Source of the DNA: Rhynchonema sp. JSB1_4
Lineage: Eukaryota > Nematoda > Chromadorea > Monhysterida > Xyalidae
Assembly (NCBI GenBank): GCA_030248065.1
Contig: JASAMV010005045.1
Location: forward strand, 1 to 64,000
Reading direction: 5' to 3'
DNA length: 64,000 nt
Positions 38,301-61,800 of this stretch are shown here, one piece after another. The position numbers and the translations under genes were made by a program. Within the stretch, counting starts at the first letter, position 1. Each line of letters starts with the position of its first letter. The notes under the pieces were generated by a model that did no database searches, had not been told where the DNA came from, and saw only the letters and a program-made list of their open reading frames with translations.

Positions 38301-41300
38301 AATCCCAAATAAACATACATCATTCTGCACAATTCTGTGCACGCAACGCATGTCACGCCATTCCGGCTGCGGCGATTTGCAATTACGTCTAGTACAAAGC
38401 GCGCTTTTCCCCAGGAGCACACAAGAACATTTACAGAAAATAAACACAAATAATCGAATACCGATGCATTCACCTGCTGATTTGCCGTCATCGGCCGACG
38501 GTCGACGTTTTTGTGTGACGTCACTCGTTTGGTTCTCTTCCTCTTCTTCTTTGCCGCCGCCGCTCAGCTCCGCGTTTAACGCCTGACGTCGCTGTTTCGA
38601 ACGTTGCAAAATTCTCTGAAAAAATTATTAAAAAATGACAAAAAAACAAACGAACGTTGCAAAATTCGCTGAATTTAAAAAATAAGAACGTGCGAAACTT
38701 TGGTCGGCCGATCTGACTAGTCATGACATGATTGATGATATCGTTACAAAGTACAAGCTACCGTATTTTGTCGGAAATGGAACCCTCGAAATCAAAAATA
38801 GAGCCCCATACCAGCCTTTACCATACCACAGATTAATGACACGATATGATGGCAAGGTTATGTTGTGTTGTTGCGTCAAATGTTGTTTAAGCTTGTGTCC
38901 ATTGCAGAATGACGCTTTTTATGCATCATTGACGCTGTTAAAAGTAAACACCCAAAAACAAGCCGTTCCGTGGGTATTATTAAAGCGGCCCCGCCGCTAT
39001 TGTTTTTTTGGTTTTTGACCTCGGTTTTTTCACTTATATCGTTTGTTGGCATCGAGATCAAGAACATTAGTTTTGACGAACTTCACCAAAATGGCGATTA
39101 CCCACCGAAATCGATCCGCCAAGATGGTCTATCGGGAACAAAACTGTCCGATATTGATGCACTTTTGCACATGATGATCAGGAATGACAAGAGAAATTCA
39201 AAATCACTGGGGCGTGATATAGGCGGCGGGTTACGGTAGCCCGATAAAACATTAGCTCTTTTGTAAATAACAAATGTTTTGTCAACCTACCGTAACGCGC
39301 CGCCTATACCACACCTCTGTGATTTGAATTTTGCTTTGGAAATCCTGATTTCCATGCACACATAGTGCATCAATATTGGGATAATTTGTTCCCGTGCGGC
39401 CATGTTGGTTGATCGATTTCGGTGGGTAAACGTCAGTTTGGCGAAGTTCTTGAAGGTTAATGTTCTTCATCTCAGTGCCAACTAACGATTAATATAAAAA
39501 AACCGAGGTCCAAAGCCCAAAAAACAATAGCGGCAGGCCCCCTTTAAGAACGGATTTTTTTATCTCCGGGGTCCACATGAAAAAAAACCAAATTGAACCC
39601 CACCAGTGTAGTTCCTGGGGGAGAGGGGGGTCCCCTAAGGTACGCTAATTTCCCCGACCAAGGTACACTAGTAGACTAATTTTCCGTCCGGGTACACTAA
39701 TTTCTCCAATTTTTGCCTAAAATAGGCATTTTTAGGCCTAAAATGTGTGATTCTTAGGTAAATGTTGTCAAAAGTCGCCAAATTCAAATTTTTATGAAGA
39801 TTTTTCAAAAAGGGGAAAAAAATAGGCAAAAATTTTCTATCTCAAAAAGTGACTTTTTTCTGAATCTGGGTGTCCACCTTCCCTCAAGGAGGTAAACTAA
39901 TTTCCCCTCCGAAAAAGTAGGGAGGTACACTAATTTCCCGCCGGACCAAGTGCAAGTTTTCAAGTTTTATTTTGTAAGCTTAGGCAATGACCTGCAAAAG
40001 TTCCGGAAACACCCGTGACATGACAACCAACATTAATTTTGACCAACCAACCAACCAGTAACATGACCAGGAACCAGTGTAGTGGCTGGGAGGGGGGATG
40101 GGGGGATTCCCCCCTAAGGGGTAGGTACCTTGCAACCACGCCTTGGGGGGATGGGGGGAAAGGGTATGTACCTTGCAACCATCCCGGAGGGTACCTTGCA
40201 ACCATCAATTTATGGTTTTCATAGGCAAAAATGGGTATTTTTCGACCTCAAAACCCCAAAAATCGCGCGCTAAACTCCATATAATAGCTATTTTAGGCAA
40301 ATTTTCCCCCAAGATTTAAAAAGTACCATGTTCTTGGCCAATTTTGCAGTATAATGCATGCAAAAAAACCCTTTTTCGGACCCTAGGGGTACCTTGCAAC
40401 CTTCCCGAGGCTGGGTAGGGGGGTGCCTTGCAACCATCTGGATCCGTCCCCGAGGGTACCTTGCAACAATCTGCCTGCCACCACACTGCCAGGAACCACT
40501 GTACTGGCTGGGGGATAGGTATCTATCTCGAGTCAACCCTCAGGGGGGATGGGGGGAGAAGGGTACCTATCTCTGGCGGACCCCAAAGGGTATCTCGAGT
40601 CAGTAGGTTTATGCTTTTCAAGGCAAAAATGGGTGTTTTTGCGACCTCGGAACCCCTAAAAATCGCGCGCAAACACACAAAAAATGGTCCTTTTAGGCCA
40701 ATTTTCGACCAAAATGTCAAAAAGTACCCATTTTAAGGCCAATTTTTCAGTAAAATTGCATGCAGAAAATGGCCTTTTTTCGGCTTGTGACGGACCACAG
40801 GGGTATCTTGGCTAGCCTGTGGGGGGTACCTCGAGTAACTCCGGAACCTTCCCCCCTCTGTGGTATCTCGGGTCGATTGGCCTTGCCACCACACTGCCAG
40901 GAACCAGTGTTGGAGGTGGGGAGTAGCCCCCCAGTACAGTAGGTATCCCCCCGCCCCGACAGTGATGTAGCTACCCAGGCGGGGCGGCCGGCAACCTACT
41001 GTACCACGAAACCAACCTACCTGCTGCACCGGCCGAGCTGGGGGGGGGGACAAAATTTTTTAGGTCTAAATATTGATGAAAATGTACTCTAAAACACTAA
41101 TTTCGCGCGTAGCGCGCGATTTTTCGCCGTTTTGGAGTGAAAAATACATATTTTACACCATTTTGAGCCTAAAATCGCAACTTACTATACCAGCCGCCCG
41201 GCGGCGACCTACCTACTGTATCAGGATGGAGCGTCAACGTTCCTACCTACTGTACCTAGGGGGGACCCCCTGCTTGCTACCCCATTGCCCCCCCCCCCCC

Positions 41301-42887
41301 CCGATTTTCACCCCGGTGCAGTAGGTATCCCCCGATTTTGCACCAAAGGTGCCAATTTTTGACCAAAATGGGTGTAAAGTCAGTGGTTCTTCACGATTCC
41401 ACACATAATAAAAACATGACAATTTCTCACCCAAAAACGTAACCCCCAACCCCCCAGGCCGTCCGCTCTGGTACCGTAGGTATCCCCCCTCTCTGAGCCC
41501 GGCACCGAAGGTATCCCCCTCCCCCTCCGTCCAGAGTACCTCCAACACTGCCAGGAACAGTGTAGTGGCAGGCAGATGGTTGCAAGGTACCCTTGGGGGG
41601 ATGGATCCAGATGGTTGCAAGCATAGTAGTGGCTGGGGGGGGGGTTGGGGGGGGGGTTACCCCCCCCCCCCTCTCAGTACTGACCAACCACAAAACCCCA
41701 GGGGGGGTGGGGGGGGGGGGAGTACTTACCTCTCACAACTCCAAATCATACCTCTCACAAGCAATTTTATACCTTTTTAAGGCAAAAATCGGTGTTTTTC
41801 TACCTTATTTTCCCAAAAATCGCGCGCTTCGCGCGCAAACCCACCCATTAAACCTATTTTTAGGCGATTTTCGGCGAAAATTTTGAAAAAGTACTATTTT
41901 TACCTCAATTTTTGGCCAAAATTGTATCACAAAAACGGTGTTTTTTCGCCTTTTTGGGTGACCAAAATCATACCTCTCACGCTTCCGGTCCCAACCCCGC
42001 ATCATACTTACCTCCCACACATGGGCCTGCCACTACACTGGTTGCAAGGTACCCCCTACCCAGCCTCCGCAAGGTTGCAAGGTACCCTAAGGCAGTGTAG
42101 TTCCTGGGGGGGAGGGGGACCCCCCAAGGTACACTAATTTCCCCGACCAAGGTACACTAGTATAGTAGTACACTAATTTCCCCTCCGGGTACACTAATTT
42201 CACCAATTTTTGCCTAAAATGGCCATTTTTTGGCCTAAAATGGGCATTTTTAGGCCTAAAATGTGTGATCTTTAGGTCAATGTTCTCAAAAGTCGCCAAA
42301 ATACCCTTTTTATGAAGATTTTTCCAAAAAGGGGTAAAAATCGGTCAAATTTTCCACCTCAAAAAGTGACTTTTCCTGATTTTGGGTCTTCCCCCCCTTC
42401 CCCCCAGGGAGGTACACTAATTTCCCCTCCGAAAAAGTAGGGAGGTACACTAATTTCCCCGCCGGACCAGGAACTACACTGCCCTTAGGGTCCGAAAAAA
42501 GGGTGTTTTTTGCATGCATTGTACTGGAAAATTGGCCAAAAAATTGGTACTTTTTTGCATTTTGGCCGAAAATTCGCCTAAAATAGCTATTATATGGAGG
42601 TTTTGAAGACGAAAAATACCCAGTTTTGACTATGAAGCCATAATTTGATGGTTGCAAGGTACCCTCCGGGATGGTTGCAAGGTACCTCCCCTTCCCCCAT
42701 CCCCCAAGGGGTGGTTGCAAGGTACCTACCCCTTAGGGGGGAATACCCCATCCCCCTACCACTACAGTGGCCAGGAACTACACAGAACCCCACCCACCCA
42801 AATCACCCCAGTGAAAAATAGAACCCCCGGGTTCCATTTCCGACAATAAGGTATGAAGCAAATGCCCACCTGAGTTGCTTCATCCAT
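23351..42887 (-). CDS. ANLN: Anillin (actin/septin-binding cytokinesis scaffold), about 25 exons
   Basis: Exons in transcript order: 42870-42887 (tentative, MDEATQ), 38474-38615, 37774-37946, 36695-36877, 36219-36381, 35710-35828, 35436-35517, 35006-35260, 34640-34698, 34156-34368, 33702-33907, 33332-33441, 31760-31890, 31007-31253, 29649-29842, 28785-28955, 28186-28290, 27359-27471, 26845-26930, 26156-26328, 25789-25888, 24947-25152, 24379-24489, about 23820-23970, 23351-23468. Phases agree except at the last junction. Total is about 1,200 residues; human anillin has 1,124. The N-terminal half is low complexity, with an [10 protein letters not shown] start region, a [10 protein letters not shown] segment and an FYRSQ motif like the human one. 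From about residue 823 comes the anillin homology domain ([16 protein letters not shown], then [22 protein letters not shown] and [17 protein letters not shown]). The C-terminal PH domain reads [14 protein letters not shown] and YPDDEENK, ending in WNPDM. Anillin links RhoA, actin, myosin II and septins at the cleavage furrow. Confidence 0.93.
24186..24376. mobile_element. GGCAAAC-type MITE, copy 3, abutting an ANLN splice donor
   Basis: Full-length copy with inverted ends AAAGGCAAACTACACC. On the minus strand it begins directly after the GT of the donor of exon 24379-24489. The rest of that 408-bp intron (about 24000-24140) is largely a second, GTCGTCAA-type MITE with a GCGCTCATTT core, so the intron is almost wholly transposon-derived. 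Confidence 0.85.
26580..26680. repeat. CGGGCCGGGCC word-array fragment in an ANLN intron
   Basis: Five or more (T)CGGGCCGGGCCGG words, last one inverted, resembling the arms of the larger element at 49122-51001. Non-coding. Confidence 0.6.
28556..28660. mobile_element. GTCGTCAA-type MITE fragment
   Basis: GTGGTCAAATCAAGTCGTC at the left and the CTCGCGCTCATTTGAGGCT core, in the ANLN intron before exon 28186-28290; right end decayed. Confidence 0.6.
29884..30045. mobile_element. GGCAAAC-type MITE, copy 4
   Basis: Left end AAAGGCAAACTACACCAAC, right end GTTGGTGTAG with the last bases lost. Interior matches the other copies. It lies close to the acceptor of ANLN exon 29649-29842. Confidence 0.75.
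30479..30990. mobile_element. hAT-like non-autonomous element with CAGGGTTGGGC ends
   Basis: Inverted ends CAGGGTTGGGCAAAAAACG. Flanked by CACGCAAC (30471-30478) and TACGCAAC (30991-30998), an 8-bp duplication with one mismatch. The subterminal regions repeat AAAACGTTTTTTT words. It sits 16 bp inside the donor of ANLN exon 31007-31253. No open frame of note. Confidence 0.85.
31375..31560. mobile_element. Truncated CAGTGGTGTCGTTGGG element
   Basis: Begins with CAGTGGTGTCGTTGGGGG, the tip of the complete element at 51100-51534, followed by a G run and a short body; no matching right end. It is in the ANLN intron between exons 31760-31890 and 31007-31253. Confidence 0.5.
31565..31682. mobile_element. 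GTCGTCAA-type MITE, decayed
   Basis: Contains TGATCAAATCAGCTCATC, the TCGTGCTCATTTGGGGCTG core and TTGACGACAAGATGTGACG. Same family as 62680-62809. Confidence 0.6.
37450..37681. mobile_element. Inverted-repeat element with GTGTAAAGGTC words, ANLN intron 3
   Basis: Two arms of about 105 bp are inverted copies of each other around a short spacer. The outer tip is GGGTGATATTTTCGAAACGG at the left and its inverse at the right. Each arm repeats the word CGGTGTAAAGGTC. No coding potential. Confidence 0.8.
38985..39540. mobile_element. Foldback element with two diverged arms
   Basis: Arms of about 240 bp, inverted and about 25-30 percent diverged. Outer tips are GGCCCCGCCGCTATTG-like and its inverse CAATAGCGGCAGGCCC. 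The inner sequences are GGCGGGTTACGGTAG / CTACCGTAACGCGCCGCC. Both arms stay open in the corresponding frame: plus-strand [19 protein letters not shown] and minus-strand [19 protein letters not shown], with a shared DIDAL further on. Whether this was ever a protein is unclear. Confidence 0.75.
40075..40488. mobile_element. GGTACCTTGCAACC word element (array member 1)
   Basis: Starts CAGTGTAGTGGCTGGG, ends GCCACCACACTG, bounded on both sides by CCAGGAAC (40067-40074, 40489-40496). Repeats the word GGTACCTTGCAACC near both ends and carries an AAAATCGCGCGC centre. Confidence 0.8.
40497..40896. mobile_element. GGTATCTCGAGTC word element (array member 2)
   Basis: Starts CACTGTACTGGCTGGG, ends GCCACCACACTG, bounded by CCAGGAAC on both sides. 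The words GGTATCTATCTCGAGTC, GGTATCTCGAGTC and relatives repeat at both ends. A relative lies at about 52990-53900. Confidence 0.8.
40905..41550. mobile_element. GTACAGTAGGTATCCCCC word element (array member 3)
   Basis: Starts CAGTGTTGGAGGTGG, ends CCTCCAACACTG, bounded by CCAGGAAC (40897-40904, 41551-41558). Same family as 44430-44906. A further element with CAGTGATGTAGCTACCC and GCTACCCCATTG ends (about 40972-41288) is nested inside. Confidence 0.8.
41622..42040. mobile_element. CATACCTCTCAC word element
   Basis: Ends CATAGTAGTGGCTGG and GCCACTACACTG with a perfect 8-bp duplication GTTGCAAG (41614-41621, 42041-42048). The duplicated bases are part of the host element's own word. Repeats CATACCTCTCAC/CTCTCACAA words and has an ATCGCGCGCTTCGCGCGC centre. 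Confidence 0.9.
42093..42481. mobile_element. Family A element, copy 2 (AATTTCCCC word)
   Basis: Intact 389-bp copy, tips CAGTGTAGTTCCTGG / CCAGGAACTACACTG, flanked by CCCTAAGG and CCCTTAGG (one mismatch). Five GTACACTAATTTC words, three at the left and two at the right. The body has TTTTTAGGCCTAAAATG and CAAAAGTCGCCAAAATACCC. Confidence 0.9.
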
Positions 42888-43490
42888 AACTTCAATAACT
42901 TCGATTTTGGTGGTGACAATAAAGGAAAGGACAGTCGGATTCCTCGATCGATTGATCCGCTTCTTGGTCTGAAAATCGGGCAGGGCCGGAGATTTGGGGA
43001 ATCGGGCCGGGATTTTGGGCACTCCTGGTACGAAAATGTGGTTTAAGCCAAGGGATTGCCGTAAAAACATTTCTTATGGTTTTCATGTTCGCTGAAAACG
43101 AATATGAGATCAATTTTAGCGTTGTAAGCAAAGTCTAAAACCTCACAACCTACACCAGCAAAGTGGCACCTTCAACGCAAGAAGCGCTCGTGTGCCACCC
43201 AGTGTAGTACTTGGTCAGGGTGTTGACGATAGACAGAATGGTACCCGAAATATGTTGACGATAGATAGATGACCCAAGTCCGAAATCTGGGGGGGGGGGT
43301 CGACCCAAACTTGTTGACGATAGATGGTGGGGGGGTGGGTAGCCAAAAATCAAGGTACAGTATAGTGCACTAAGCAGGTAATAATGCTTAAAGCGGGAGT
43401 CCAGGCAGTAAGGTCCGGTCACCAAACTTGCCGAAAACTTCAGATCCGTTTGTCGCAATTCATGTGAATATAATGCAGTTTATATGAAAT
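42888..43490. other. Upstream of ANLN; partial GTTGACGATAGATAGAT element
   Basis: Nothing coding recognised. If the 18-nt first exon is right, the ANLN 5' untranslated region and promoter fall here. A fragment with AGTGTAGTACTTGGTCAGGG and GTTGACGATAGATAG words (about 43200-43400) matches the left part of 51588-52049. Confidence 0.45.
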
Positions 43491-43493
43491 CGG

Positions 43494-43905
43494 TGGTCTC
43501 AGTATCGACCGAGAACGATATCGTCAAAGGTACCAACCCAGGAGTATAAAATATTCCGGACCAGCTGCCCAAAAGCGACATTTATAACGCGTGAGGATAG
43601 GTCACCAATCTCTTTTTATTCGCTGGGTTACGGTAGGACAGCCCAAACCAGCGTGGTCATCAAGCATTTTGTTCCCCAAATGTTAGTGCGCTTATCTACT
43701 GATGGTGAGTTGGCACGTGTGGAACATTTTTCTACCCAGTGCAGTTCTGAAACTACCGTAACCCAGTGAATAAAGAGATTAGCGACCTATCTTCACACGC
43801 TATAAATGTCATTTTTGGGCAGCTGGTCCGAAATTTATTTTGTTCCCGAGTTGGTACCTTTGACGACACTGTTCTCGGTCGATACTGCTTCAATCAAAGT
43901 TCTGT
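43494..43905. mobile_element. Foldback element, arms about 145 bp
   Basis: The left arm (GTATCGACCGAGAACG, GGTACCAAC, CCGGACCAGCTGCCCAAAA, CTGGGTTACGGTAG) reappears inverted at 43745-43905, with a loop of about 110 bp. The inner tip GGGTTACGGTAG is shared with the foldback at 38985-39540. No coding. Confidence 0.8.
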
Positions 43906-44036
43906 AAATGGGATTGTATTCGGATTAATGTCGACTAGAACCTGTGAAAAGTTGAACAAGTTTGGCGCAATGCCCCCACTGCCTGGACCCCCGCATTAAA
44001 TATTAATAAAAATGTACTCAGTAAATCTATAGTGCC

Positions 44037-44170
44037 TATATATGAAAAAAAAACGTTTTTTTCCTGGTGAAAACGGAAAAAACCGTTTTTTTCCGGAGCC
44101 AGATTAATTTCCTCCAAAACAAATAACCGAAAAAATTACCGGTAAATTATTTTTCGTAGAAAAATGTGTT
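44037..44170. repeat. AAAACCGTTTTTT word-array fragment
   Basis: Repeated GGAAAAAACCGTTTTTTTCC-type words, a fragment of the family represented complete at 55072-55437. Confidence 0.5.
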
Positions 44171-44429
44171 TTCTTGGTCTAAAATGGCGAAAAATTTTCT
44201 TGAGAGGATAAATGTTACATGTTCTTCATGTTACAAAATCGATTAAAAAGAGGCTAAAACAAGTGAAAACAAGGTTTTATCGCCTTATCGGGCCAACAAT
44301 ACACGCGCGGCACTTGTTAAGCCCCAAACAAGCAAAAAACTGCCTAAAAGTAGGTGTTTCGCCCATCGGGAGATAGAGTTCACAGAAAACCAAACGGAAT
44401 CCAACTCTGGGTTTCTCTTTCGTTCAACT

Positions 44430-44906
44430 CAGTGTTGGAGGTGGGGGTGGGGGTTTGGGGGGGTAGCCCCCCAGTACAGTAGGTATCCCCCCTCGCCTGG
44501 TACAGTAGGTATCCCCCCCGATGTTTGGCATGGTACAGTAGGTATCCCCCCCCCGGATTTGCACCCCGGTACAGTAGGTATCCCCCCCCCCCCCCCGATT
44601 TTGCCTCAAAAGTGCCAATTTTTGACCAAAATGGCCAAAATTAGTGTAAAATCAGTGGTTTTTACCTCAAATTACCCCAAATTCGCGCGCTGCGCGCGCA
44701 AATACTACGTTTTCACACGATTCCACACATAATAAACACATAAAAAAATTTCACCCCAAAACCTAACCCCCCCCCCCAACCCCCCAAACCCCCCCCCCCT
44801 GGGTACATAACCCCCCCCCAGGCCATCGGCTCTGGTACAGTAGGTATCCCCCCCTCTCCGAGCGCGGTACAGTAGGTATCCCCCCTCCAGAGTACCTCCA
44901 ACACTG
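44430..44906. mobile_element. GTACAGTAGGTATCCCCC word element
   Basis: 477 bp with tips CAGTGTTGGAGGT / ACCTCCAACACTG and a perfect 8-bp duplication GTTCAACT (44422-44429, 44907-44914). At least six GTACAGTAGGTATCCCCC words at the two ends, inverted relative to each other, and a centre with CGCGCGCTGCGCGCGC. Confidence 0.93.
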
Positions 44907-45199
44907 GTTCAACTTTTGGCTCAGACTTCAATTCAGGCTTAGGCTTAGAAAATTATTATTTGTTTATATATTGTTATTTATTTATATTATATTATATTAT
45001 TATTTATTATATGTATATCTCATTATCTGGGAAAATTTTGACTTTTTGGTCGTTCAAAATAATGATGAAAGTGCTTTTCTATCATTTGAGAAACAAGTTC
45101 AGTTGTCAGGCATGACACTCGAACGAATTTCTGATCATAAACCATCAATTTGAGGAAAAAACTAGACATAATTAGACAAATTATGGGTCATTTTGGTAT

Positions 45200-45370
45200 T
45201 GCCTAAATGGAATCGCACCCACCCAATACCCAATACCCAATACCAAGCGCGCCACCCAATACCCAATACCAATACCAGGTATTGGGTTAGTATTGGGTAC
45301 CCAATACCAGGTATTGGGCATTGGGTGGTATTGGGTATGGGTATATTGGGTATTGTGCCCATGCCTAGTT
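45200..45370. repeat. ACCCAATACC word-array fragment
   Basis: Dense ACCCAATACC / GGTATTGGGT words arranged in opposite orientations around the middle; a small relative of the elements at 46258 and 49165. Confidence 0.65.
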
Positions 45371-45439
45371 TCGCGTCAGTTGGATTCCGTTTGTGTGAAT
45401 TCTATCTCCGCGTGTTTCGCCCTTCGGAATTCCTTAAGT

Positions 45440-45925
45440 ACCGGTAATTTATTTGGTGTTTTTTAGAAAAAAAAATATAATCTCTGATCCTGCCTATACT
45501 TGCGGGCCGGAAAAAAACCGTTTTTTTCGGAAAAAACCGAAAAAAAACCGTTTTTTTTCCGAGGCCCGGAAAAATACGTTTTTATTTTTCCGGAAATTTT
45601 TCCAAGTGGCAACTTTTGGAAAAAAACGGTTTTTTTCAAAAATTTCCGAGATATTTTCAAGGGTTGCGAAAGGATGTTGTCAAAACCAACCAATGTAAAT
45701 CAGTGCTAAACAGTTCAAAATGAGCACTTTTTAATCTCCAAGTGCATTTTTAGCCCGTTTCAGGCCATTTCCAGCGCAGACAAAATTTTCTCAAAAATAG
45801 GCGTTTTTGGACCGTGGGTATCCTTAAGTACTGGAAAAATATTTGAAAAAAAAAACGGTTTTTTTTCGAAAAAAACGGTTTTTTTTCAAAAATATATTTT
45901 GCGGAAAAATACGCAAGTATAATGG
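45440..45925. repeat. AAAACCGTTTTTT word-array element
   Basis: Multiple AAAACCGTTTTTTT words on both sides of a core with GCCCGTTTCAGGCC. Ends CTTAAGTAC and TACGCAAGTATA were not matched to a target duplication. Open frames over it are low-complexity Phe/Lys artefacts. Confidence 0.6.
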
Positions 45926-46784
45926 CAGCAGTGCCTGATCCCAAAATCTGGTTACCGTATTGTCGGAAATAGAACCCGGGGGGTCTATTTTGTCACTGGG
46001 GTCATTTTGGGGGGGGTTCAATTTATGGGGGGGGGTCAATTATTGGGGGGGTTATATTTTTCATTTGGCCCCCCGACGAAAAAAATCATTGTTAATAATG
46101 CCCATAAAAATGGCTTGTTTTCGGTATTTTCTAACTTCAACAGCGGCAATTATGCTTAAAAAGCTGTATTCTGTTGTGCACGCAAGCTCAAACAACGTTT
46201 GACACAACAACACAGCCCTACCATACCACTAATCTGTGGTACGGTGAAGGTTGGGGGTAGGCCTGGGCACAATACCACTTTTGACACCCAATACCAATAC
46301 CCAATACCAATACCGGCCCTGTACCAATACCCAATACCAATACCAAATTGGTGACCCAATACCAATACCCAATACCAATACCGGGTCAGACCCAATACCA
46401 ATACCAATACCCAATACCAGATCAATACTACTGAAGTGTTTGGTATTGGGTTTGGTATTGGGTTGGTATTGGTATTGAGTATTGGGTATTGGTCTTAGTA
46501 TTGGTTTGGTATTGGGTTTTTGGTCTGGTATTGGGTTGGTATTGGGTTTGGTATTGGTTTGGTATTGGGTTTTGAGTCAGGTATTGGGTTTGGTATTGGT
46601 TTGGTATTGGGTTTTTCTGGATTAGTATTGGGTATTGGTTTTGACCCAATACCTGGGCAAACCCAATACCAATACCCAATACCAATACCAGGCCAGCTTC
46701 AATACCAATACCCAATACCCAATACCAGAATTAGACCCAATACCAATACCAAACACTGGTATTGGTATTGGTATTGGGTGGTAT

Positions 46785-47930
46785 CAGTGTAGTTCCTGGG
46801 GGGGGGGGGAGGGGGGGGGGGGTCCCCCCCCTCCCCTAAGGTACACTAACCGCCGCGACCAAGGTACACTAGTACACTAACCGCCGCGCCAGGTACACTA
46901 ACCGCCTCAATTTTTGCCTAAAATTGGCATTTTTAGGCCTAAAATGGGCATTTTTAGGCCTAAAATGAGTGATTTTTAGGTCAATGATGTCAAAAGTCGC
47001 CAAAATACCCTTTTTATGAAGAATTTTTTCCAAAAAGGGGCAAAAATCGGTCAAATTTTCGGGAACGTAATTCGTGGACCGGCCGACCGCTGACCGGTAC
47101 ATTTAGCTACGGTAGCTATAGCACAGGCAGCATAGCTACCGTAACCCATATTTCCGATAGCAGGACATTCCCACACGCACACGGTTAACGGAGTTGCCGT
47201 TAGCGGGCTCCGTCCGCTGCTCCAGCTTGCAGAACATTCCCACACGGTTAACGGAGTTGCCGTTAGCGGGCTCCGTCCGCTGCTCCAGCTTGCAGAGCAT
47301 TCCCACACGGTTAATGGAGTTGCCGTTAGCGGGCTCCGTCCGCTGCTCCAGCTTGCAGAACATTCCCACACGGTTAACGGAGTTGCCGTTAGCGGGCTCC
47401 GTCCGCTGCTCCAGCTTGCAGAACATTCCCACACGGTTAACGGAGTTGCCGTTAGCGGGCTCCGTCCGCTGCTCCAGCTTGCAGAACATTCCCACACGGT
47501 TAACGGTGTTGCCGTTAGCGGGCTCCGTCCGCTGATCCAGCTTGCACAAGATTTCCACGCGGTAAACGACGTTGCCGTTAGCGAACTCCGTCCGCTGATT
47601 CAGCTTGCAGAACATTCCCACACGGTAAATGATGTTGCCGTTATCGGAGTCCGTCCGCTAATCCAGCTTGCAGAACATTCCCACACGGTTAACGGTGTTG
47701 CCGTTAGCGGGCTCCGTCCGCTGCCTGTGCTATAGCTACCGTAGCTAAATGTACCGGTCAGCGGTCGGCCGGTCCACGAATTACGGCCCCAAATTTTCTA
47801 CCCCAAAAAGTGACTTTTTCCTGGATTTGGGTCTTCCCCCCCCCCTTCCCCCCCAGGGAGGTACACTAACCGCCGCACGGAAAAAAGGGGTAGGTACACT
47901 AACCGCCGCGCCGGACCAGGAACTACACTG
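46785..47930. mobile_element. Family A element, copy 3 (AACCGCCGC word; interrupted)
   Basis: Tips CAGTGTAGTTCCTGG / CCAGGAACTACACTG; perfect 8-bp duplication GGTGGTAT (46777-46784, 47931-47938). Same body as the 42093 copy, but all five words read GTACACTAACCGCC. Interrupted by the element at 47061-47790. Confidence 0.93.
47061..47790. mobile_element. Long-TIR element with 63-bp minisatellite core
   Basis: Terminal inverted repeats of about 70 bp (CGTAATTCGTGGACCGGCC inward through CGGTAGCTATAGCACAGGCAG), perfect 8-bp duplication AAATTTTC (47053-47060, 47791-47798). The core (about 47160-47722) is about nine tandem 63-bp units containing GGAGTTGCCGTTAGCGGG; the last three or four are diverged. 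Because 63 is a multiple of three, long repeat frames exist on both strands, but none looks like a real protein. Confidence 0.92.
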
Positions 47931-47967
47931 GGTGGTATTGGTATTGGGTATTGGGTATTGTGCCCAC

Positions 47968-48827
47968 CAATGGTGTGGCTGGGGGGGGGGGGTGTGGGGG
48001 GGGGTCCCCCCCCCCCAAGGTACAGTAGGTAGGTTGCCGCCCCTCGCCTGGTACAGTAGGTAGGTTGCCGCCCCTCCCCTGGTACAGTAGGTAGGTTGCC
48101 GCCCCACCTAACTTTTCACCCAAAACATTCATTTTTGGCTTAAAATTGCATAAAATTAGCGTATTTGTCTGCAAATAGGCAAAAAATCGCGCGCTGCGCG
48201 CGAAATTAGTGTTTTAGGCCACATTTTCGTCAGTATTTAGACATAAAAAATTTCGGTTTCCAGATGACCCCCCCCCCAAGTGGTACGACCCCCCTCCTCG
48301 CTCGGCTGGTACAGTAGGTAGGTTGCCGCCCCGCATTTTGGGTGGTACAGTAGGTTGCCGCCCCGCCGGGGTACCGTAAAAACCTAAATAGAAGGGGGGG
48401 GGCTCTATTAACTCACTGACCCCATTTTGGGGGGGCTCTATTACGGGGGGGGCTCTATTCCGGGGGGGCCTCTATTAATTCACTGACCCGAACCTGAAAA
48501 TTGTTCCCAGAAACACCCCAAAAACCCCTAACAACGGGTTTGAAAGGATGTTTTTTCGCTTGCAACCGCATTTATTCGTGTCTATTCGTCAATAGGAGGC
48601 GTATTATGTGCTCTGAACAAACAACAAACGTACATAAATGTACCTGTACACCACTATCAAGCCTTAATACACTACAGTATAGGGGGATGTTACTTTGGGG
48701 GGGGGGTCTTATTTCGGGGGGGGGGGGGCTCTATCAATTCACTGACCCCTTTTTGGGGGGCGGTATTACGGGGGGGCTCTATTCCGGGGGGGGCTGTACT
48801 TAGGTTTTTACGGTAGCTACACCACTG
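47968..48827. mobile_element. GTACAGTAGGTAGGTTGCCG word element (interrupted)
   Basis: Ends CAATGGTGTGGCTGG and AGCTACACCACTG; perfect 8-bp duplication GTGCCCAC (47960-47967, 48828-48835). Words GTACAGTAGGTAGGTTGCCG at both ends, centre ATCGCGCGCTGCGCGCGAAA. Interrupted near its right end by 48374-48813. Confidence 0.9.
48374..48813. mobile_element. TA-flanked element with CCGTAAAAACCTAA ends
   Basis: Inverted ends CCGTAAAAACCTAAATA / TACTTAGGTTTTTACGG, flanked by TA. Subterminal GGGGGGCTCTATT words alternate with CACTGACCCC. Youngest insertion in its branch of the nest. Related arms surround the element at 51100-51534. Confidence 0.85.
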
Positions 48828-49164
48828 GTGCCCACCCATAGTTGGGGGTGGGGTTCTATTAATGGGGGGGTCAATTAATGGGGGGGGTTATATTTTTGAT
48901 TTCGAGCCATTTAGGGGGGGGGGTTCAATTAATGGGGGGGGGTCAATTAATGGCGGGGTTCTATTTCCGACAATACGGTAGTTAAGTTAAATTAAAACTC
49001 TGGTTTGAATTATTCAAGCTCGATTACGGTAACGTGTAACCCCTCCTTGACACGTCAGGACCATAGCGCAACCTGGGGACCCCGTTCAGTACATGGAGTT
49101 GCTTAAAATAAAATCAGAGGTTAGAGATCGGAAACGGGCCGGGTAAAGTCGGCCCGGCCCGGCC

Positions 49165-50017: not shown

Positions 50018-50461
50018 CAGTGCTGTGGCTGGGGGGGGGGGGTGGGGGGGTCCCCCCCCCCAATGGTACCCTACCCGCCCCGGCCTGGTACGCTACCCCC
50101 CTACCCGCCCCGCTCTGGTACCCTACCCCCCTACCCGCCCCGCCCTGGTACCCTACCCGCCCCGATTTTTACCCCCAAAATGCCCATTTTTCGGTCAAAA
50201 ATGCCCAAATTTCGACCGAAAACCCTAAAAAGTGCAAAAAATTTCGCGCTGCGCGCGATATATGTACTTTTTAGTACATAAAAACAGGCACGCGAAAAAA
50301 CTTGTGTTGTACCCTACCCGCCCCGAAAAATCTTCCCCCCCCCCCCCCCCCCCCAAACCGGATTTCCCCCCCCCCAGATCCCAGGGACACGACCCCCCCA
50401 CCCGCCCCGATTTTTTCCACCTATGTACCCTACCCGCCCCGCAAAAGTAGCCACAGCACTG
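50018..50461. mobile_element. GGTACCCTACCCGCCCC word element
   Basis: Tips CAGTGCTGTGGCT / AGCCACAGCACTG, perfect 8-bp duplication ATGCGGTA (50010-50017, 50462-50469). About eight (G)TACCCTACCCGCCCC words and a TTTCGCGCTGCGCGCGAT centre. Confidence 0.93.
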
Positions 50462-51534: not shown

Positions 51535-51587
51535 CCCCTAAAAGGGGTCAGTGAAAAAATAGAGCCCCCCAAAAATACAGCCCCCCC

Positions 51588-52049: not shown

Positions 52050-52059
52050 CCCCCCCCCA

Positions 52060-52650: not shown

Positions 52651-52812
52651 GCCTTATATTGGTATTGGCTGCGTGGTATTTATATTGAGTATTGGGTATT
52701 GTACCCACTTAAAATACATGAAAAATCATTATAATCATTGACCGGCAGGCGAGCGACTGAGCATCTGCGCAAAAAACCAATAAATAAATGGATATGCCGT
52801 GCCAATAACATA

Positions 52813-55800
52813 ATGAGAACAAGGAACGTGCAACTGTTGACGATTTTCGCGGCCACGGTGGTGCATTTTTTCTCAATTTACTGTTTCTCGAAAGCATTTT
52901 TTCCGACAATTCGCTCACCCGGCAACACCAGGAAGCAAACTGAAGCAGGTTAGGATGACATAATTTGAATTTGTCTTTGGCGCGGCAACCACTGTAGCGG
53001 CTGGGGTATGGAGGGATTCCCCCAAGGGGTATCTATCTCGAGTCAACCCTCAGGGGCAGTGTAGTTCCTGGGGGGAGGGGGTCCCCCCTCGGGTGCGCTA
53101 TCTCCCCCTCAGGTGGTACACTATCCCCCTATCTCCCCCTCCGGGTACACTATCTCCCCCCAATTTTTGCCTAAAATAGGCATTTTTAAGCCTAAAATGG
53201 GCATTTTTAGGCCCAAAATGTGTGATTTCAGGTCAATGTTGTCAAAAATCGCCAAAATACCCTTTTTATGAAGATTTTTTTTCAAAAAGGGGCAAAAATA
53301 GGTCAAATTTTCTCCCTCAAAAAGTGACTTTTTCCTGAATTTGGGTCTCCCCCCTCTGGGGTACACTATACCCCCTCCGAAAAAAACGGGGGGTCCGCTA
53401 TCTCCCCCTCCAGACCAGGAACTACACTGCTCAGGGGAGAACGTATCTATCTCGAGCCGACCCCAAACATGGTATCTCGATCCAGTAGATTTGTGCTTTT
53501 CAACGGCAAAATGGGTGTTTTTCGACCTTGGAACCCGTAAAAATCGCCCGCTCCGCGCACAAATGCGCAAAAATGGTCGTTTCAGGCCGATTTTCGGCCA
53601 AAATCCCAAAAAGTAGCCATTTTAGGAAAATTTTGCAGTAAAATTGCATGCAAAAAATGGCCTTTTTCGCCTTTTGACGGGCCATAGGGCAGGGGTATCT
53701 TGGCCCTGGGAAGCCTTGGAGGTATCTTGAGTAACTGCGAACCTTCCTCCGGAAACTTCGAGTAAAGCGCTAATTTCGCTCGTGGCGCGCAGTTTTTTTC
53801 GCCTACTTGGAGTGAAAAATAACCGATTTTGTACCATGTTGAGCCAAAAATCGCAACCTACTGTTCCAATCAGGAGGAGGAGGTGATCACACACTGTAGT
53901 GGCTTGGGGGATGAGGGGATTCTGGTTACATTTGGCTCAATTTACTGAATTCAATTCAAGTTTTCTTCAAACGAAATAAACACCAAATGTTAAATTTGGC
54001 TCGAAGCAGTGTAGTTCCCGGTCCGGCGGGGAAATTAGTGTACGACCCTACTTTTTCTGAGGGGAAATTAATGTACCTACCTGGGGGAAGGGGGAAGACA
54101 CAAATTCAGGAAAAAGCCACTTTTTGAGGTGGAAAATTTGGTCTATTTTTGCCCCTTTTGGAAAAAATTCTTCATAAAAATGGTATTTTGGCGACTTTTG
54201 ATGACGTTGACCAAAAAATCACACAATTTAGGCTTAAAATGCCAATTTTAGGCCTAAAAATGCCTATTTTTGGCAAAAATTGGGGAAATTAGTGCACCCG
54301 GAGGTGAAATTAGTGTACTAATGTACCTTGATCGGGGAAATTAGTGTACCTTAGGGGGCCCTCCCCCAGGGAACTACGCTGGCTCGAAGAAAAATTTTTC
54401 ACAAAATTCTTCTCTCATCATCACATCATCAAAACTGATGTCATGAACCTCAAGTCTCGGGTGTTGGCTGTCTGCTGTCGGGTCCCAAAAAACCGACACC
54501 CGACATCTGGAGGCATCTGGACCGACACCCGGACCCGACAGACAGCTGACACTAGGGTTAGAGGTCGGGGGGTACCCGACAGCCGACACCCGACATCTGG
54601 AAGTACCCGACACCCGACATCTGAGAAAAAAGCCGACACCCGACAGTTGCAAAAAACCCGACACCCGACATCTAATTTTTGAAAAAAAAACCGACACCCG
54701 ACACCTGTTTTTGGACCAAAAACAGGCAAATTTTTGCTCATTTGCATCATTAGTGAAATTTTTTGGCTCAAGCTACCGAATTCAAGTATTTTCACACAAA
54801 ATAAACGCCAAAATGTCACATTCTGCGTCTTCGGAAACATTTGGTTCGAAGAAAATTTTCTCTCAAAATTCTTCTCTCAGCAAAACTGATGTTTTGAACC
54901 GTAAGTGTCGGGTCCTAAAAAAACCGACACCCGACATCTGGAGGTACCCGACACCCGACACCTACACTTTTTTGGCACCCGACACCCGACATCTCTCTAA
55001 CCCTAGCTGACACCCGACATCCCTTTAACCTAGTGCGGTGTTAATGAATGGCAAGTGACTGACCAAGCAAGTATAGTTGCAATTTTTCCGGAAAAATATA
55101 TTTACTGAAAAAAAACCGTTTTTTCCCGATATTTTTCCGAGCCAACTTTGGGCCCATCAAAATGGTGTATATTTGGCACATTATGCGCTAAAAATGGTGT
55201 ATGAAAAGGTATCCTGTTCAGAAAGTGCGAATAAAAGCTGTAAAAGGGCTGGAAACACTTGAAAAGGTATGTTTCCGAAATAAAACTAGGTTGTTTCCCA
55301 TAATTTTGACACTTTTGTCAGAAACGTTCAAAATCCACCGCGCAATTTTTGCGGAAAAATATATTTCACTGGAAAAAAAACGGTTTTTTTTACCTTTTTT
55401 ACCCTGAAAAAAACCGTTTTTTCCACCTGCAACTATACAAGCAAGTGCCTAATTTTGTTGACGATCTGTTCACAAGCTGACACAGATGATGGCCACACGG
55501 CTGATTGGCGCGGTCGCGTTGTGTTGGTTGTCGTTGATGCGCTGCGATATGATTTCGTCGCTCGAAACTCGTCCGACGGCCAGCCGAGCATGCCGTTTCT
55601 GTCCGCCCGGTTGCGCGACCATCCGACGACGTCGTTTAGATTCATGGCCCGAACGCAACTGCCGACTGTGACGTTGCCGAGAATTAAGGTGCTCGTTCGA
55701 TGTTTGTTTGATGATTATGTTCAAACATGATTGCTAGGAACTCACACGGACACTGACAGTCAAATCCGCTATGCACCTTTTCTCGCGGTGGCCAGCCACG

Positions 55801-58800
55801 CGGGGGAACCGTCGCCCCTTCCCACATTGTCCTTTTGGGCCAATACTTCAATGTGGTGCCACTTTGGAGCATATTTTGATCATCTGTGCGTTTTTGTTTA
55901 GAAAAACGATTTTTCTGTGTGGCACAAAATGAAAGTTACCTATCGATTGGTTATTTTTTGAATGAGCTTCACGCGCCGTTTGTGTTGTTCGACCGATGAG
56001 CAGGGGGCAAAATGTCACGCCGATGGTCCCGTCTCGAATCTGAAAACTTGTTTTTTTTCAAATTTTTTTTTCTTTCACCTTTGACACCGAACTTAATTCA
56101 TGCATTGTAACATTCTCGTACACTTTTTAAACTTGCAGGCGCTCACGGTCGGTTCAGTGTCCTCATTTCTGGATGTGCTCAACAACTTTGCGTCCTCCGA
56201 GCTCAGCACGGATAATCTGATCGATCGACTACTTGCTCGTCAGCAGCACGTGTTGTTCTACGGTGATGACACGTGGATGAAGTTGTTTCCGAATCGATTT
56301 CTCGCTCGTTCGGAGGGCACCGCGTCCTTCTTCGTGTCTGACTTTTATGAGGTGACATTGTTGCAACTCGTCTTGAGCCTTTTCTGCCTATCTGGTAACT
56401 GGTCACGAGATCGGCATCTTGGGGGTAACCTGCACCAAAACATAAAAACCTGACCTGACAAGAAAGTAAAAGCCGACACCCGACATTTGAAAAAAATGCC
56501 CGACATCGTATTTTTGGACCAAAAACATGGAAAATTTTGCCCAGTTGCCTAACTAATGACAAGTTTTTTCAGCTTCATTCTCTCAATTAGAAGGGGTTTG
56601 AACGAAATGAACACCGAAACAATGTGTTCTGCTCCTTGGTTGAAAACTGGATTGGGGAAGAACAAATATTTTGAGGAAATTTTTTCTCTGAACACTGTGC
56701 TTGAAAGTGTAAACTTCGGGTGTCAAATGTCGGGTGCAACAAAACCCGACATCTGAGAGCACCCGACACGTACACTTTTCTTGGGTGTCGACACCCGACA
56801 TGCCCGATCCCTATCCGCCGGAGTTTGACATGCAAAACATGCTTGTGTTGGTTCCATTTTTTTCGGGGGCAGTTCGCACCAAGGTATTATATTCCAGAGC
56901 TGTAAATAGACCAAACGATAGGTAATTTTAGCCGTTTATACATGTACAAAAAAACTCGGTGCGAATTGCGGCTATGGTTTTGTCGTCAAACCATGTCGAC
57001 AAATAAAGTCGTCGAACAAGAACGAGCAATAATACATGCGCCAAATGAGTGCGAAAATAATACACGTGATTTGATGACAAAATGTGACGGCATTACTATG
57101 AGCCCGAATTGCATTGCACCTAAAAATCGCAGTGAAACATCATTATTCCCGCGAATGCAGGTCGACAACAACATCACACAACATCTGGCGGCTGAATTCG
57201 AATCACATCAATCCGACTGGGATCTGCTCATTCTGCACTACCTCGGCCTCGACCATATTGGTCATGTGCATGGCGCCAGGCATCCGTTGATCGATGAGAA
57301 ATTAAGAGAAATGGATGGCATTATTGCCGATATCTGGCGCAACTGCACCGTCATGGGCAGGATCTACAATGTATGTCTCATGTCCGTTTGGTTTTTTGTC
57401 AATTTAGCTCGAAATGGTAGCTGAGGCAGGGGCGGATCAGCTTTTGCCCAAAATGGAGGTGAATCCAAAAAGTCGTTTTTTATCTAGTGCTTGTTCCTTT
57501 TTTCAAAAGTCATTTTTTTATCTAGTGCTTGTGAAGAATTTCGTTTTAACATCGGATATCATGCAAAATGCGGCCCCGCGTAAGATTTTGGCAGTTTTTG
57601 CGCGCGCGAAAGCCAAATTTCATTACAAATGGCCAATTGGGTGTATCCGACGCGCGAAGCAAGCGCGCGATTTTTGGACTTTTGAACTGTATCAGAGCGA
57701 AAATCTTGCGATTTGGGGTCCTTTCTTCTTCTTCCGAAACGGTGCCCCCCTTCAGGGGCCAAATGGACCAAAGGGGGCACGGCCCCTGTGCCCCCTGGAT
57801 CCGCCCTTGAGCTGAGGACGAAAAATGTATCCGATTTGCGGCCAATGTGTGGTTTGCTGGCATGGTCTCGGGGTCCGGTGGGGTTTGGTCTGGGGTGTAA
57901 AATGGGTTGGGTCATATCTATCGATCATGTAGTTTCTGTGATCTTGTCCAGCGTGCGTAAAACTTGATGATCCCTTGTGAGCTGTGAAAACACGCTTGAC
58001 AACGTCAACAGAAACGACAAAATCGTCTTATCGTCACTTTGCACCCGCGACCCAAACATGCCAGCAAACTGCATACCGGCCTGTATAAAAGGCACAAATT
58101 CAATGACGGCATCAGCGGTCTTTGGTTGACTCAGCGTCTGATCAGGCTATCTTACAATGCTGTATTTCGATGTTTACTAATGCGACGAATTGCGATCAGC
58201 TAATTTAGTTGATATAGCAACTTTTTAAATTCGCTGCCGTGCACTAAAATACGCCAGATTGTTAACGTCAAGTTCTAAACCCGAACGCTGACCACGCGCA
58301 ATTCTGAAACTTTGCGCACAGCTGCCCGGCTGGCTGGGCATGCTGGAAGTGTGTCTGTTGCACGAATGTTTCAAAAGTGGACTTTCGGGTATAGAACTTG
58401 ACATTAACTATGGTGTGTATTGTATTTCCTTGTGCGGCAGCAAATTTAGACATGTATTATATTGCATTTCGCAGGCAATATCGCATCATTCCTGCCATGT
58501 GATAATAGTGGGTGATCATGGCATGACCGAGGCCGGCAGTCACGGCGGTGCATCGTCCGATGAAACGTCTGTGCCTTTGGTGTTGCTCACACATTCACAA
58601 AATGGTGGCGAAAGTGACGCGGACAATTATGCACCATCGACCTATTGGCACGACCATAACGATATTCAGCAAGTCGATCTAGTGCCCACACTGAGCGCTC
58701 TGTTCGACGTTGCACCGCCCCAAGACTGCATTGGCGTACCCTTGTTGCCTGTTCTACAAAGGGTATTCGATGATGACAAATGCACACCGTTGTGTGTGAT

Positions 58801-61800
58801 GCTGGCCAATATGAAACATTTGTTACGCACATTGGGCCATGATGCGGGCACGTGTTTGAGTCAGACTTCACTGGGTGAGTCGGTGGTTTGAATTTATGAG
58901 GGCGCACTACGCCAACACGAGCCCGATGTCGGAGATGGTGATAAAACGAAAAGAAAGAGAAAATCCTCGTGCACCATTTGCATTCTACAACGTGTTGCAC
59001 TTCCCAAATCAGCAGCCACGTCTGAATGTTTCACTCGTCTGTCAGCTCCGAAATCAGGCTCGTGTTGCCGCAGTTGTACTACACAGAACACGATAACACC
59101 TGTGTCAAACGGCCAATGGTACTGTCGTCAACTCAGCAGAAGCAGCCCCAAATGAGCGCGAGAAATAATGCATTGAGTTGATAAGATTTGACCACACTAC
59201 CATAAGCATGTGAAACCATTGTTGCCACAGTTTGCAACAGCTGCACCAAAACTTATTTTTACCAAGACGTTCTGACGCTAAGTAGAAGTGCACTTTGATT
59301 CCGCAATGTTTTTTGAGTTGCTGAATGGAACATGAATTTTGAAACAAGTACAACAGCACATAGATTTTGCTGTGCTCTTTTATCATTCAGATTCGGCTCA
59401 TTTGTCCGACCTGGCGCAGTCGTTCTGCGATTGCGGCAAGCGTCGCGGGAATGCGGACTCTCGTGGTACTCCATCCAACAACTTCAGAGCAACGGATGTA
59501 CAGAAACTGTCCGGTCAGTTGTACATTGTGTGCAAGTTGGTGCAGAAATGTTTACTCGAACAATCGACGGATTACGATCATCATGCACTATTGGCTGCCA
59601 TGGTCGTGGCTTGGACGGTACGTTTGGTGACGGTCTGTTCCCTTTTTTTGGGGGCTTAACAAACTGAAGTTGTCATCATCGCGTTTCGAGTCGCACATTT
59701 GCTTTCTGGAGTGCTGCCCGTTTCATGCCATGTCCATCATGACGAGCCGTATTTGTGAACGGTGACTTACATCGCAGTGGTCAAATCACTTCGTCAACTC
59801 ACATTGTAGAGTCGTCAACTCACGTCATTTCATGGCTGCTGTGAATCGACGAAGTGATTTGACCACTGTACTATTATCCTGAATAACGATGTCCTTTTCG
59901 CAGCTGAGTGTGTGCCTCGTGCGTGTCGTCTACTGCCTGTCGCATCGTCAAACCAATGTAATCAGTCTGTTTATGGTCGTTGGTTGTGTGCTGGTCTGCA
60001 TGGCTGGACTCAGCTCCAGTGCCGTCGAAGAGGAACATCAGGTATCGCCAATGGAAATATTTCTGTGTTTGGACGTTTGTTGAAGGGCAAGTGGTTCATT
60101 GGGAATAGACAGGCTGGATCTGCCTTTGTCGCATGACATATTGTAACGATTAGGGTTACAGATCTGGGGAGTGCCCGACACCGGACATCTGGGCAAAAAA
60201 CAAACACCCGGCGGTATTAAAAATATCCAAAAATAGCCCACACCCGAATTTTTGGACCACAAACGGGCAAAATTTGCTGTTTAGCTTCATCAATGCAAGT
60301 TTTTGGCTCAATTTACGGAATACAAAGGTTTTTTTTTCGAAGAAAAACTTCCCTCAAAATCCGTTTCTCAGCAAAATTAGTGTTTTGAACTCTAACTGTC
60401 GGGTTTCGGCCGTCGGGTTTCGAAAAAAACCGATACCCGATATCTGGAGGTACCGGACACCTGAGATCTGTATATTTTTGGTACCCGGGCGACACCCAAC
60501 ATCGCTCTAACCCGGGTGGAATCAATTTCAACTGAAGTTTTTTATTGGGCAATCTGCGAAATGATGCTGCCACTGCAAACCGAAATTCAGTATAATCGGT
60601 AGCCTTCAAGATTAACATAGCTTTTTTTAGACACTTTTTAGGTGCAATTTGCACCTAAAAAATCAGAATTGCACCTAGAAATGCAGGGTTAGGTGCAAGG
60701 TTGCACCTAAAATTTTGGGCCCTTATTTGCTTAATTTAGCATTTACGTATACAGCATCTTTTAAGGTTGGAAAGCTTAGAAACAAAAAAAATGCGCTGCG
60801 CGGCTTTTCATTCCTTCCAATAAATTCCATCGAAGCATTTGGTCGACATCGACAAAAAATATTGATCTGATTGATTGATTTCGTACACAGTTAGTACCTG
60901 GTGTGCTGGTGATAAGATTCAAAACAAATACATGCTGTACTAGGATCAGTGTAGTTCCTGGTCCGGCGAGGCGGTTAGTGAACCTACCCACTTTGTCGGT
61001 GCGGCGGTTAGTGCACCTCCCTGTGGGGGGAACGAGGGGGGAAGACCAAAATTCAGGAAAAAGTCCTTCTTTGAGAAACTTCTTTAAAAAATTTGACCTA
61101 TTTTTGCCCTTTTTTGGAAAAAAATTCTCCATAAATAGGGTATTTTGGCGACTTTTGACTACATTGACCTGAAAATTACCCATTTTAGGCCTAAAATGCC
61201 CATCTTGGGCTAAAAATGCCTATTTTAGGCAAAAATTGCGGCGGTTAGTGTACCTGGAGCGGCGGTTAGTGTACCGTACCTTAGGACGGGACCCCCTCCC
61301 CCCAGGCACTACACTGACCAGAACTAGAGCAGAGCATGACAACAGTATTAGATACCCACACAGTAAATGAACAGCGAAAGTAATTGATTCGTACGTGACC
61401 CCCAAATGTGGACATGGTGACATGAAAATTTTACTGTTTCGTTTTCTTCTCAATCGGTGCTCAATAATGAAACTGGTACAGAATGTGCTACAAAATGTTG
61501 AACTTTCCCTGAAAAGTTTGCTTTTGCTAAAGGAAAAGGCATTCATTGCGTTACAACTTTATTGAACTTCCAAAAGCACGCAAATAGCATTGAACACACA
61601 ACCTGGCAAAAAAGTCTAAAATTGGCATTTTTGTCCAAAATAGGGGTTGCACCTACTTTGGCCAGCTTGCACCTAAAAATTGGGGGGTTGCACCTAAGTT
61701 GCACCTAGTGAATTTTGGAAAAAAAAACCCTGAAGATTAAGAAACTCAGTCTACGAACATAGACCAACTGACTCAGCAAGTTCGCCATCAACAAAGTAAC

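Follow-up and report, generated by a model that had tools for sequence, protein, structure and literature searches.

How do five separated sites of a small mobile element come to carry one word within a copy when other copies carry a different word at all five? The question is raised by six copies of an approximately 390-bp element in the window, the whole 64,000-nucleotide stretch analysed.

The elements and their words

Direct reading of the six copies bore out the coordinates, words and layout of the original prediction, with corrections. The element has 15-bp inverted tips (CAGTGTAGTTCCTGG at both ends), 8-bp target duplications and repeated words near both ends. Each word is 16 nt long and consists of two 8-nt halves, X and Y. 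As described, three sites (1-3) lie near one end and two (4 and 5) near the other, but site 2 is a 24-nt long form (8-nt X, 8 nt, 8-nt Y) and reaches 32 nt in the copy at 42093. In the copies read, all words lie on one element strand, which makes them direct rather than inverted repeats when the two ends are compared. The window contains 23 occurrences of the first half GTACACTA, whereas 100 shuffles average 0.82.

Copy 1 (39604-39949, plus strand), of class A1 (ATTTCCCC), is worn and lacks the right tip; its sequence was read directly, and its words lie at 39640-39655, 39663-39686, 39692-39707, 39892-39907 and 39925-39940. Copy 2 (42093-42481, plus strand), also A1, is flanked by the target duplication CCCTAAGG/CCCTTAGG (7/8) and has words at 42129-42144, 42152-42183 (the 32-nt form), 42189-42204, 42412-42427 and 42445-42460. 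Copy 3 (46785-47930, plus strand; target duplication GGTGGTAT/GGTGGTAT) is of class A2 (ACCGCCGC), with words at 46841-46856, 46864-46887, 46893-46908, 47861-47876 and 47894-47909. It is split by a nested insert (47062-47785, limits approximate, no strand assigned) whose inverted-repeat ends (GTAATTCGTGGACCGGCC...) enclose 8.7 units of a 63-bp tandem repeat. Copy 4 (53057-53429, plus strand; target duplication CTCAGGGG/CTCAGGGG) represents class A3 (TCTCCCCC), with words at 53093-53108, 53116-53139, 53145-53160, 53361-53376 and 53393-53408; these are worn, and among the four 16-nt words one is exactly GTACACTATCTCCCCC and one is the usual site-5 form of class A3. Copy 5 (54007-54381, minus strand; target duplication GCTCGAAG) has A1 words at 54334-54349, 54303-54326, 54282-54297, 54061-54076 and 54028-54043, on a body whose alleles at positions 17, 19, 133 and 179 are of A2/A3 type. 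The expectation of five words per copy held for the other copies but not for copy 6 (60947-61316, minus strand), an old A2 copy whose flanks match at 5/8 positions: it has four recognisable words (61259-61274, 61238-61253, 61001-61016 and 60968-60983; two exact, one GTGCACTAACCGCCGC and one GTTCACTAACCGCCTC) and a GTAC stub. As a check of coding capacity, none of the six open reading frames of at least 180 amino acids in the window overlaps an element copy.

Three related families are also present, all on the plus strand. One (40075-40488; target duplication CCAGGAAC) has a tip of similar type (CAGTGTAGTGGCTG) and a word of its own (GTACCTTGCAAC). The second (44430-44906; target duplication GTTCAACT) has tip CAGTGTTGGAGGTG and word GTACAGTAGGTATCCCC, and the third (50018-50461; target duplication ATGCGGTA) has tip CAGTGCTGTGGCTG and word GTACCCTACCCGCCCC; 24-nt long forms of GTACCCTACCCGCCCC were seen in copies elsewhere (L014, L018).

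Word classes across the genome

Exact tips number 9,703 in the 204-Mb genome (4872 + 4831), compared with 1 + 1 for a reversed-pattern control. Inverted-tip pairs with duplications numbered 45 versus 0 in a shifted control, and target duplications matched at 7-8 of 8 positions in 30 of 47 tip pairs, a set that includes mispaired and nested tips. The abundance of tips, the defined ends and the length (about 390 bp, under about 600 bp) are those of a MITE; the 8-bp target duplications and short inverted tips beginning YARNG, the hAT tip consensus, are those of hAT transposons. The copies are best read as miniature elements of hAT type, non-autonomous and divided into four or more end classes.

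Copies were sampled from tip-rich stretches (L039-L058) and from 60 of the 100 places listed among 3,846 (L059-L118). This sample gave 109 anchor hits, with all five sites called in 58 and at least two in 95; 81 copies entered the body tree. Classes were called by whole-word fits, because the Y half alone mislabelled C-rich tracts as class 4. Four classes (X + Y) were found: A1 (GTACACTA + ATTTCCCC), A2 (GTACACTA + ACCGCCGC), A3 (GTACACTA + TCTCCCCC) and A4 (GTACGTCT + GTTCCCCC). The prediction that the first half stays constant while the tail is swapped therefore holds for A1-A3 but not for A4, which lies outside the window and differs in the first half as well. Site 5 gave a similar division: of the 100 words listed from 3491, 93 are at most one base from a class word (A1 11, A2 35, A3 34, A4 13); six differ by two changes and the remaining one by four, with a single class nearest in every case. 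Spacers between words differ from class to class, and certain sites have their own usual form within a class (ACCGCCTC at A2 site 3, GTCCGCTA at A3 site 5 and GCTCCCCC at A4 site 3).

Words were predicted to be constant within and variable between copies, and this was borne out. The class is uniform in 58/58 copies with all five sites callable, and a genome-wide search for exact A1/A2 hybrids spanning sites 1-2 gave 0 + 0 (both directions) versus 1,365 matches of the covering pattern. Both ends agree in 70/70 copies with both ends called (from the 109 anchor hits), a count that excludes two mixed-end copies, L049:2349-2739, which was missed by the anchor, and L048:4614-5155, whose right end lies beyond the segment. 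Both lack their own target duplication; L048 is labelled A3 in the body tree from its left end. Among 100 listed matches of the covering pattern, three site combinations are not pure. As intermediate word combinations, C34:4386 (inside L049) was rejected as a chimera and C390 (= L119) as a single copy with scattered mutations; the third, C97, is known from the pattern match only. Another copy, L120, combines one half of an A1 element with an A4 piece in inverted orientation.

Bodies and matched ends

Bodies seem at times to have been exchanged between classes, judging from one full hybrid with A2 ends and an A1 body and from a left junction allele that recurs in the genome. The hybrid, L078, has five A2 words, A2 spacers, a class-1 body with the A1 base at 9/10 A1/A2-diagnostic positions, and a perfect target duplication (CTATACAG). 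Its spacers and site-3 oddity are class-2 too, so the end blocks stay together while the body between them differs. The A1 body allele at its junction, GGCC, was counted by reading in 28 of 100 A2 junctions listed from 395 pattern matches, 27 of them known at the left body junction only; all 28 fall on the AAC sub-lineage (28/37 versus 0/63 of those listed). In the body-anchored sample the allele is present in only 1/19 class-2 bodies. Part of the sharing of body alleles could be old polymorphism, since 7/27 A3 copies likewise have GC at positions 17/19 of the body. Fisher values, which treat parallel sites as independent, are descriptive only. Within the sampled bodies the main alleles at 17/19 and at 179 were seen in no more than three of their four combinations; disagreement is therefore shown for words against body, and not within the body itself. 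On the body tree it was visible as anticipated, with seven word changes (minimum three) over 81 copies.

In the sampled copies the left and right word arrays are inherited with their spacers as a matched set, and on this view the words do not switch jointly within an element. Of the earlier proposal that words switch together, the variation as a set stands, but the disagreement with the body needs no switch. The simplest reading is that an element inherits its two ends as one matched unit and that bodies pass from class to class; together with an origin of the classes by changes in transposase specificity, we consider it reasonably probable. Each end would consist of the tip and an array of class-specific words (X8 + Y8, site 2 having the long form), and a working element would need matching ends since a single transposase has to recognise both. 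The AT-rich body, common to all classes, would at times move from one class to another, most simply through a single tract of conversion or gap repair involving two copies. If so, the similarity of bodies may understate the age of the word classes. The direct orientation of the words, odd for a symmetric synapse, counts against this reading.

We find it doubtful that the classes are four long-separated families whose word sets track their transposases and whose bodies are alike through conservation or recent homogenisation. Class A4 would fit, as it forms its own body clade (100/97 support) with 20-25 of 190 body bases different, and so would the spacer differences. Words also mostly follow the body, the nearest body being of the same class, or tied with one that is, in 75/81 copies. 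Constraint on the body is possible too, since one A1 body, taken as single-stranded DNA, outdoes 200 shuffles in folding (z -4.03). However, the consensus bodies of A1, A2 and A3 differ at only 8-10 of 190 positions (4-5%), compared with 3-4 of 8 for the Y half, and these classes are not single clades (5, 3 and 4 changes, respectively, on a tree with many weak branches).

Concerted switching inside an element, in which one site changes and templated repair or conversion spreads the new word, is improbable in our judgement. In its favour, the sites of each class do have one new Y half in common (bar single-site oddities), which independent mutation would not produce. The templated copying suggested earlier finds no support: shared substitutions were found in 0/302 pairs of sites within a copy (55 substitutions in 254 words), a weak test with little power against rare copying (shuffled mean 0.57). 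In addition, the site-specific oddities persist as usual forms, the long form at site 2 is kept in every class, and in L078 the non-word spacers moved along with the words. It is very improbable that a host factor or a silencing system, rather than a transposase, targets the words and that their change is a means of escape. Although Y is fast relative to the body, as would fit an arms race, the words of the copies read lie near the ends at fixed spacing and matched across both, and hAT-domain elements of the same genome also have repeated words, as expected of transposase sites.

Transposases and known systems

A search with PF05699 gave 330 candidates, of which 150 were scored and 30 loci cut. 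No hAT gene with CAGTGTAGTTCCTGG tips, and hence no autonomous relative of the kind envisaged for each word, was found among these 30: 25 lie in elements with other tips and 5 have no inverted-tip pair, in a tip check that required an 8/8 duplication and had no shifted control. For PF02892 (BED) there were 32 matches, and the two loci examined (L015, L121) belong to other families. PF10683 had no match in the genome, its control being silent too, and PF18758 (the KDZ transposase domain; KDZ/Zisupton) matched neither this genome nor any control genome. L014 was rejected as an autonomous partner because its hAT domain lies within a TAGGGATCGG element that is itself nested in one of class A3; L036 was judged to be nested similarly, from tips and word positions only. 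In both, class words flank the hAT domain.

As no transposase with CAGTGTAGTTCCTGG ends was found, the link is by analogy: the classes probably diverged through hAT-type transposases of different DNA-binding specificity. The change of transposase envisaged at the outset is our best guess for class origin, with transposase lineages that would have changed the DNA-binding part reading Y and kept the part reading X. The subterminal repeats are putative transposase-binding sites, and the matched sets at both ends fit the suggestion that the words are recognition sites.

According to one report (PMC3260210), the Ac transposase binds subterminal repeats (AAACGG) and internal Ds sequence is often unrelated to Ac. 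Maize Ds1, Ds2 and Ds-l4, with Ac, resemble the present elements in short inverted tips, 8-bp target duplications and subterminal repeats. The Ds classes share tips and, partly, one hexamer (absent from 314/331 Ds1) and differ in body, whereas the present classes have tips and body in common and are set apart by the word set; here, moreover, every word of a copy, among those read, has one orientation. A second report (PMC8097297) describes bipartite BED and Hermes-type DNA-binding regions in hATs, and CGG-binding proteins derived from them, with diverse specificities; the motifs of four hAT-encoded proteins match subterminal regions of their own elements. Such diversity is the kind that a word-class system would need; the four words here are tied to no protein. 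For P-element MITEs of Anopheles gambiae, bodies were proposed (PMC1562414) to derive from internal deletion and ectopic repair between retained ends; those bodies are unrelated sequence, whereas here same-family bodies seem to pass between end classes. A literature search by titles, with subscription papers mostly outside it, gave no description of shared-body elements with class-specific matched end words.

The thousands of copies are a natural data set in which site specificity (words) could be followed apart from the passenger (body). Provided that every word class is served by a transposase of its own, a single genome would hold several specificity steps, each retaining X and exchanging Y in a bipartite site, bearing on the co-evolution of transposases and sites and on how miniature elements keep pace. 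An unlikely extension is that word sets are compatibility codes: autonomous elements would change one half-site specificity and escape parasitic miniature elements, and successful bodies would recombine onto new matched ends. One genome would then maintain several transposition systems that share one chassis but are incompatible with each other.

Elements with a hAT domain, CAGTG tips and 8-bp duplications occur in the same genome and count in favour of the hAT-type reading. The hAT elements with tips CAGTGTTCGAACGGGA and TAGGGATCGGCGTCGG resemble the present family in inverted tips, 8-bp duplications and repeated words, and have hAT dimerisation or BED domains; they differ in the tips and words themselves and in carrying parts of a transposase gene.

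Anatomy of the A family and its word classes

The assembly that holds the window (in contig C3098) comprises 204 Mb in 5,747 contigs. Direct reading of the window sequence confirmed the six A-family copies of the original prediction, which start at 39604, 42093, 46785, 53057, 54007 and 60947. Copies are typically some 390 bp long and carry CAGTGTAGTTCCTGG or a worn form of it at both ends; genome-wide this tip has 4,872 + 4,831 occurrences, and the reversed pattern 1 + 1. With the words reading forward, an element opens with a tip, a G-rich stretch and words 1–3; an AT-rich body some 190 bp long separates these from words 4 and 5, which are followed by the second tip. In the copies read a single strand carries every word of an element. 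The 8-bp target duplications match at 7 or 8 of 8 positions in 30 of 47 tip pairs, with nested or mispaired tips counted as well. When the window and loci from tip-rich stretches of the same genome (L039–L058) were searched more broadly, 45 pairs of CAGTG-like inverted tips with duplications were found, with at least one start entered twice, and 0 pairs when the duplication partner was moved 40 bp as a control.

Each word is 16 nt long and consists of an X half and a Y half of 8 nt each. The A1 word is GTACACTA+ATTTCCCC. Words A2 and A3 have the same X half followed by ACCGCCGC and TCTCCCCC, respectively, and site 5 of A3 is usually GTCCGCTA+TCTCCCCC; the A4 word is GTACGTCT+GTTCCCCC. Among A1, A2 and A3 the Y halves differ at 3–4 of 8 positions. 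Site 2 is usually 24 nt (X + 8 nt + Y), a form common to A1–A4, and in the 42093 copy it is X + 16 nt + Y. A related family with the tip CAGTGCTGTGGCTGG also has 16- and 24-nt forms of its word, GTACCCTA+CCCGCCCC (loci L014 and L018). Site-5 words were collected with a pattern that needs an intact right tip and is blind to the one-base-longer A4 form; among the first 100 of 3,491, at most one base separated 93 from a class word, 6 had two changes and 1 had four, and every one had a single nearest class.

Constancy of the words within a copy

The original prediction held that the repeated word is exchanged at all five sites together. We compared words within 109 matches to a body anchor (window and loci L039–L118), the full copies being a sample drawn in part from tip-rich stretches. 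All 58 copies with five callable sites had uniform words, the left and right ends agreed in 70 of 70 copies in which both were callable, and no mixed words were found among the 95 anchor-found copies with at least two sites called. Two mixed copies were seen outside this set, the anchor having missed or cut both: L049:2349–2739 is A2 on the left and A3 on the right, with flanks agreeing at 2 of 8 positions, and in L048:4614–5155 an A3 left end is nested in an A2 element with an A2 right end (0 of 8). Exact A1/A2 combinations over sites 1 and 2 were absent genome-wide (0 and 0). A pattern covering these sites had 1,365 matches, and the first 100, counted by reading, were 81 pure A2, 16 pure A1 and 3 others. 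A1 junctions at C318:14889–16646, on another contig, are spaced about every 435–444 bp, which suggests a tandem array of A1 copies.

Copying of one site onto another was not supported. The 254 16-nt words examined carry 55 substitutions relative to the usual form of each site, and none was shared in 302 pairs of sites of one copy (shuffled mean 0.57), a test with little power against rare copying. Oddities of a single site are the usual form within their class (A2 site 3, A3 site 5, A4 site 3), which argues against homogenisation, since it would erase them.

Words and bodies

The consensus bodies of A1, A2 and A3 differ pairwise at 8–10 of 190 bases, and that of A4 differs from them at 20–25 of 190. 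In a tree built from the bodies of 81 copies, with weak support at 34 of its 73 inner branches, A4 forms one clade and A1–A3 do not. The word classes need 7 changes on this tree (minimum 3) against a shuffled mean of 40.9, so words largely follow bodies; the anticipated conflict between word type and body phylogeny is limited to exceptions, with 6 of 81 copies whose nearest body is solely of another word class (shuffled mean 50.7). The body of the 42093 A1 copy (42204–42392) has a single-stranded DNA fold better than 200 of 200 shuffles (z −4.03).

Locus L078 is the clearest exception. All five of its words are A2, as are its spacers and its site-3 oddity, and its body has the A1 base at 9 of 10 A1/A2-diagnostic positions, compared to 0–2 in the 18 other A2 copies. 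The duplication CTATACAG flanks it on both sides, which indicates that the hybrid moved as a hybrid. Since spacers and oddities accompany the words, insertion of a body between A2 ends is a better reading of L078 than the rewriting of five words. A single internal tract is enough for the former, and the latter takes a tract at each end. The exchanged body would naturally come from gap repair templated by another copy; a similar origin was proposed for the bodies of Anopheles P-MITEs (PMC1562414). If bodies are exchanged, the word classes cannot be dated from body similarity.

The A1 body allele GGCC was present in 28 of the first 100 of 395 matches to the A2 word-3/body junction, all on copies beginning with AAC (28 of 37 versus 0 of 63, counted by reading); of these, L078 is known as a full copy and the other 27 at this junction only. 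GGCC was less frequent among the copies found with the body anchor, where 1 of 19 A2 copies had it. The A1 junctions for which letters were obtained (94 of 234) comprised, by reading, 80 GGCC, 6 AGGC, 6 GGGC and 2 AGCC, and GC at body positions 17/19 was found in 7 of 27 A3 copies too.

Candidate transposases and neighbouring elements

The likeliest reason for matching ends would be that one transposase must hold both. The genome contains hAT-domain elements with repeated words; the 30 loci cut had the tip CAGTGTTCGAACGGGA in 20 cases, TAGGGATCGGCGTCGG in 5 and no element in 5, each element having the 8-of-8 duplication that the search itself demanded. No transposase with A-family tips was found in these 30 loci. 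The DNA-binding regions of hAT transposases are bipartite and diverse in specificity (PMC8097297), which would fit an X half that is kept and a Y half that is replaced; by this analogy a hAT transposase is a candidate for holding A-family ends.

An approximately 1.4-kb CAGTGTTCGAACGGGA element (L015:1185–2565), a short span for a catalytic part, has a BED finger frame of 117 aa and a hAT dimerisation frame of 168 aa; its product might be an inhibitor that binds DNA and dimerises. A TAGGGATCGGCGTCGG element of about 0.9 kb (L121:562–1461) has a BED finger, 26 more BED matches score near it (31.3–31.7 bits), and other TAGGGATCGGCGTCGG-tipped elements carry the dimerisation domain.

Within the window, three elements of different families lie side by side at 40067–41558, the middle one judged by reading only, with the same 8 bp, CCAGGAAC, between them (starts 40067, 40489, 40897 and 41551); they look as though all three had used one target site. 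CCAGGAAC also forms part of the A-family tip. The 46785 copy contains an insert (47062–47785) in which 8.7 units of a 63-bp tandem repeat are enclosed by long inverted ends. Two more families (44430–44906 and 47968–48827) have GTACAGTAGGT in common, followed by ATCCCC or TGCCGC, and are possibly a second case in which the first half is kept and the second changed.
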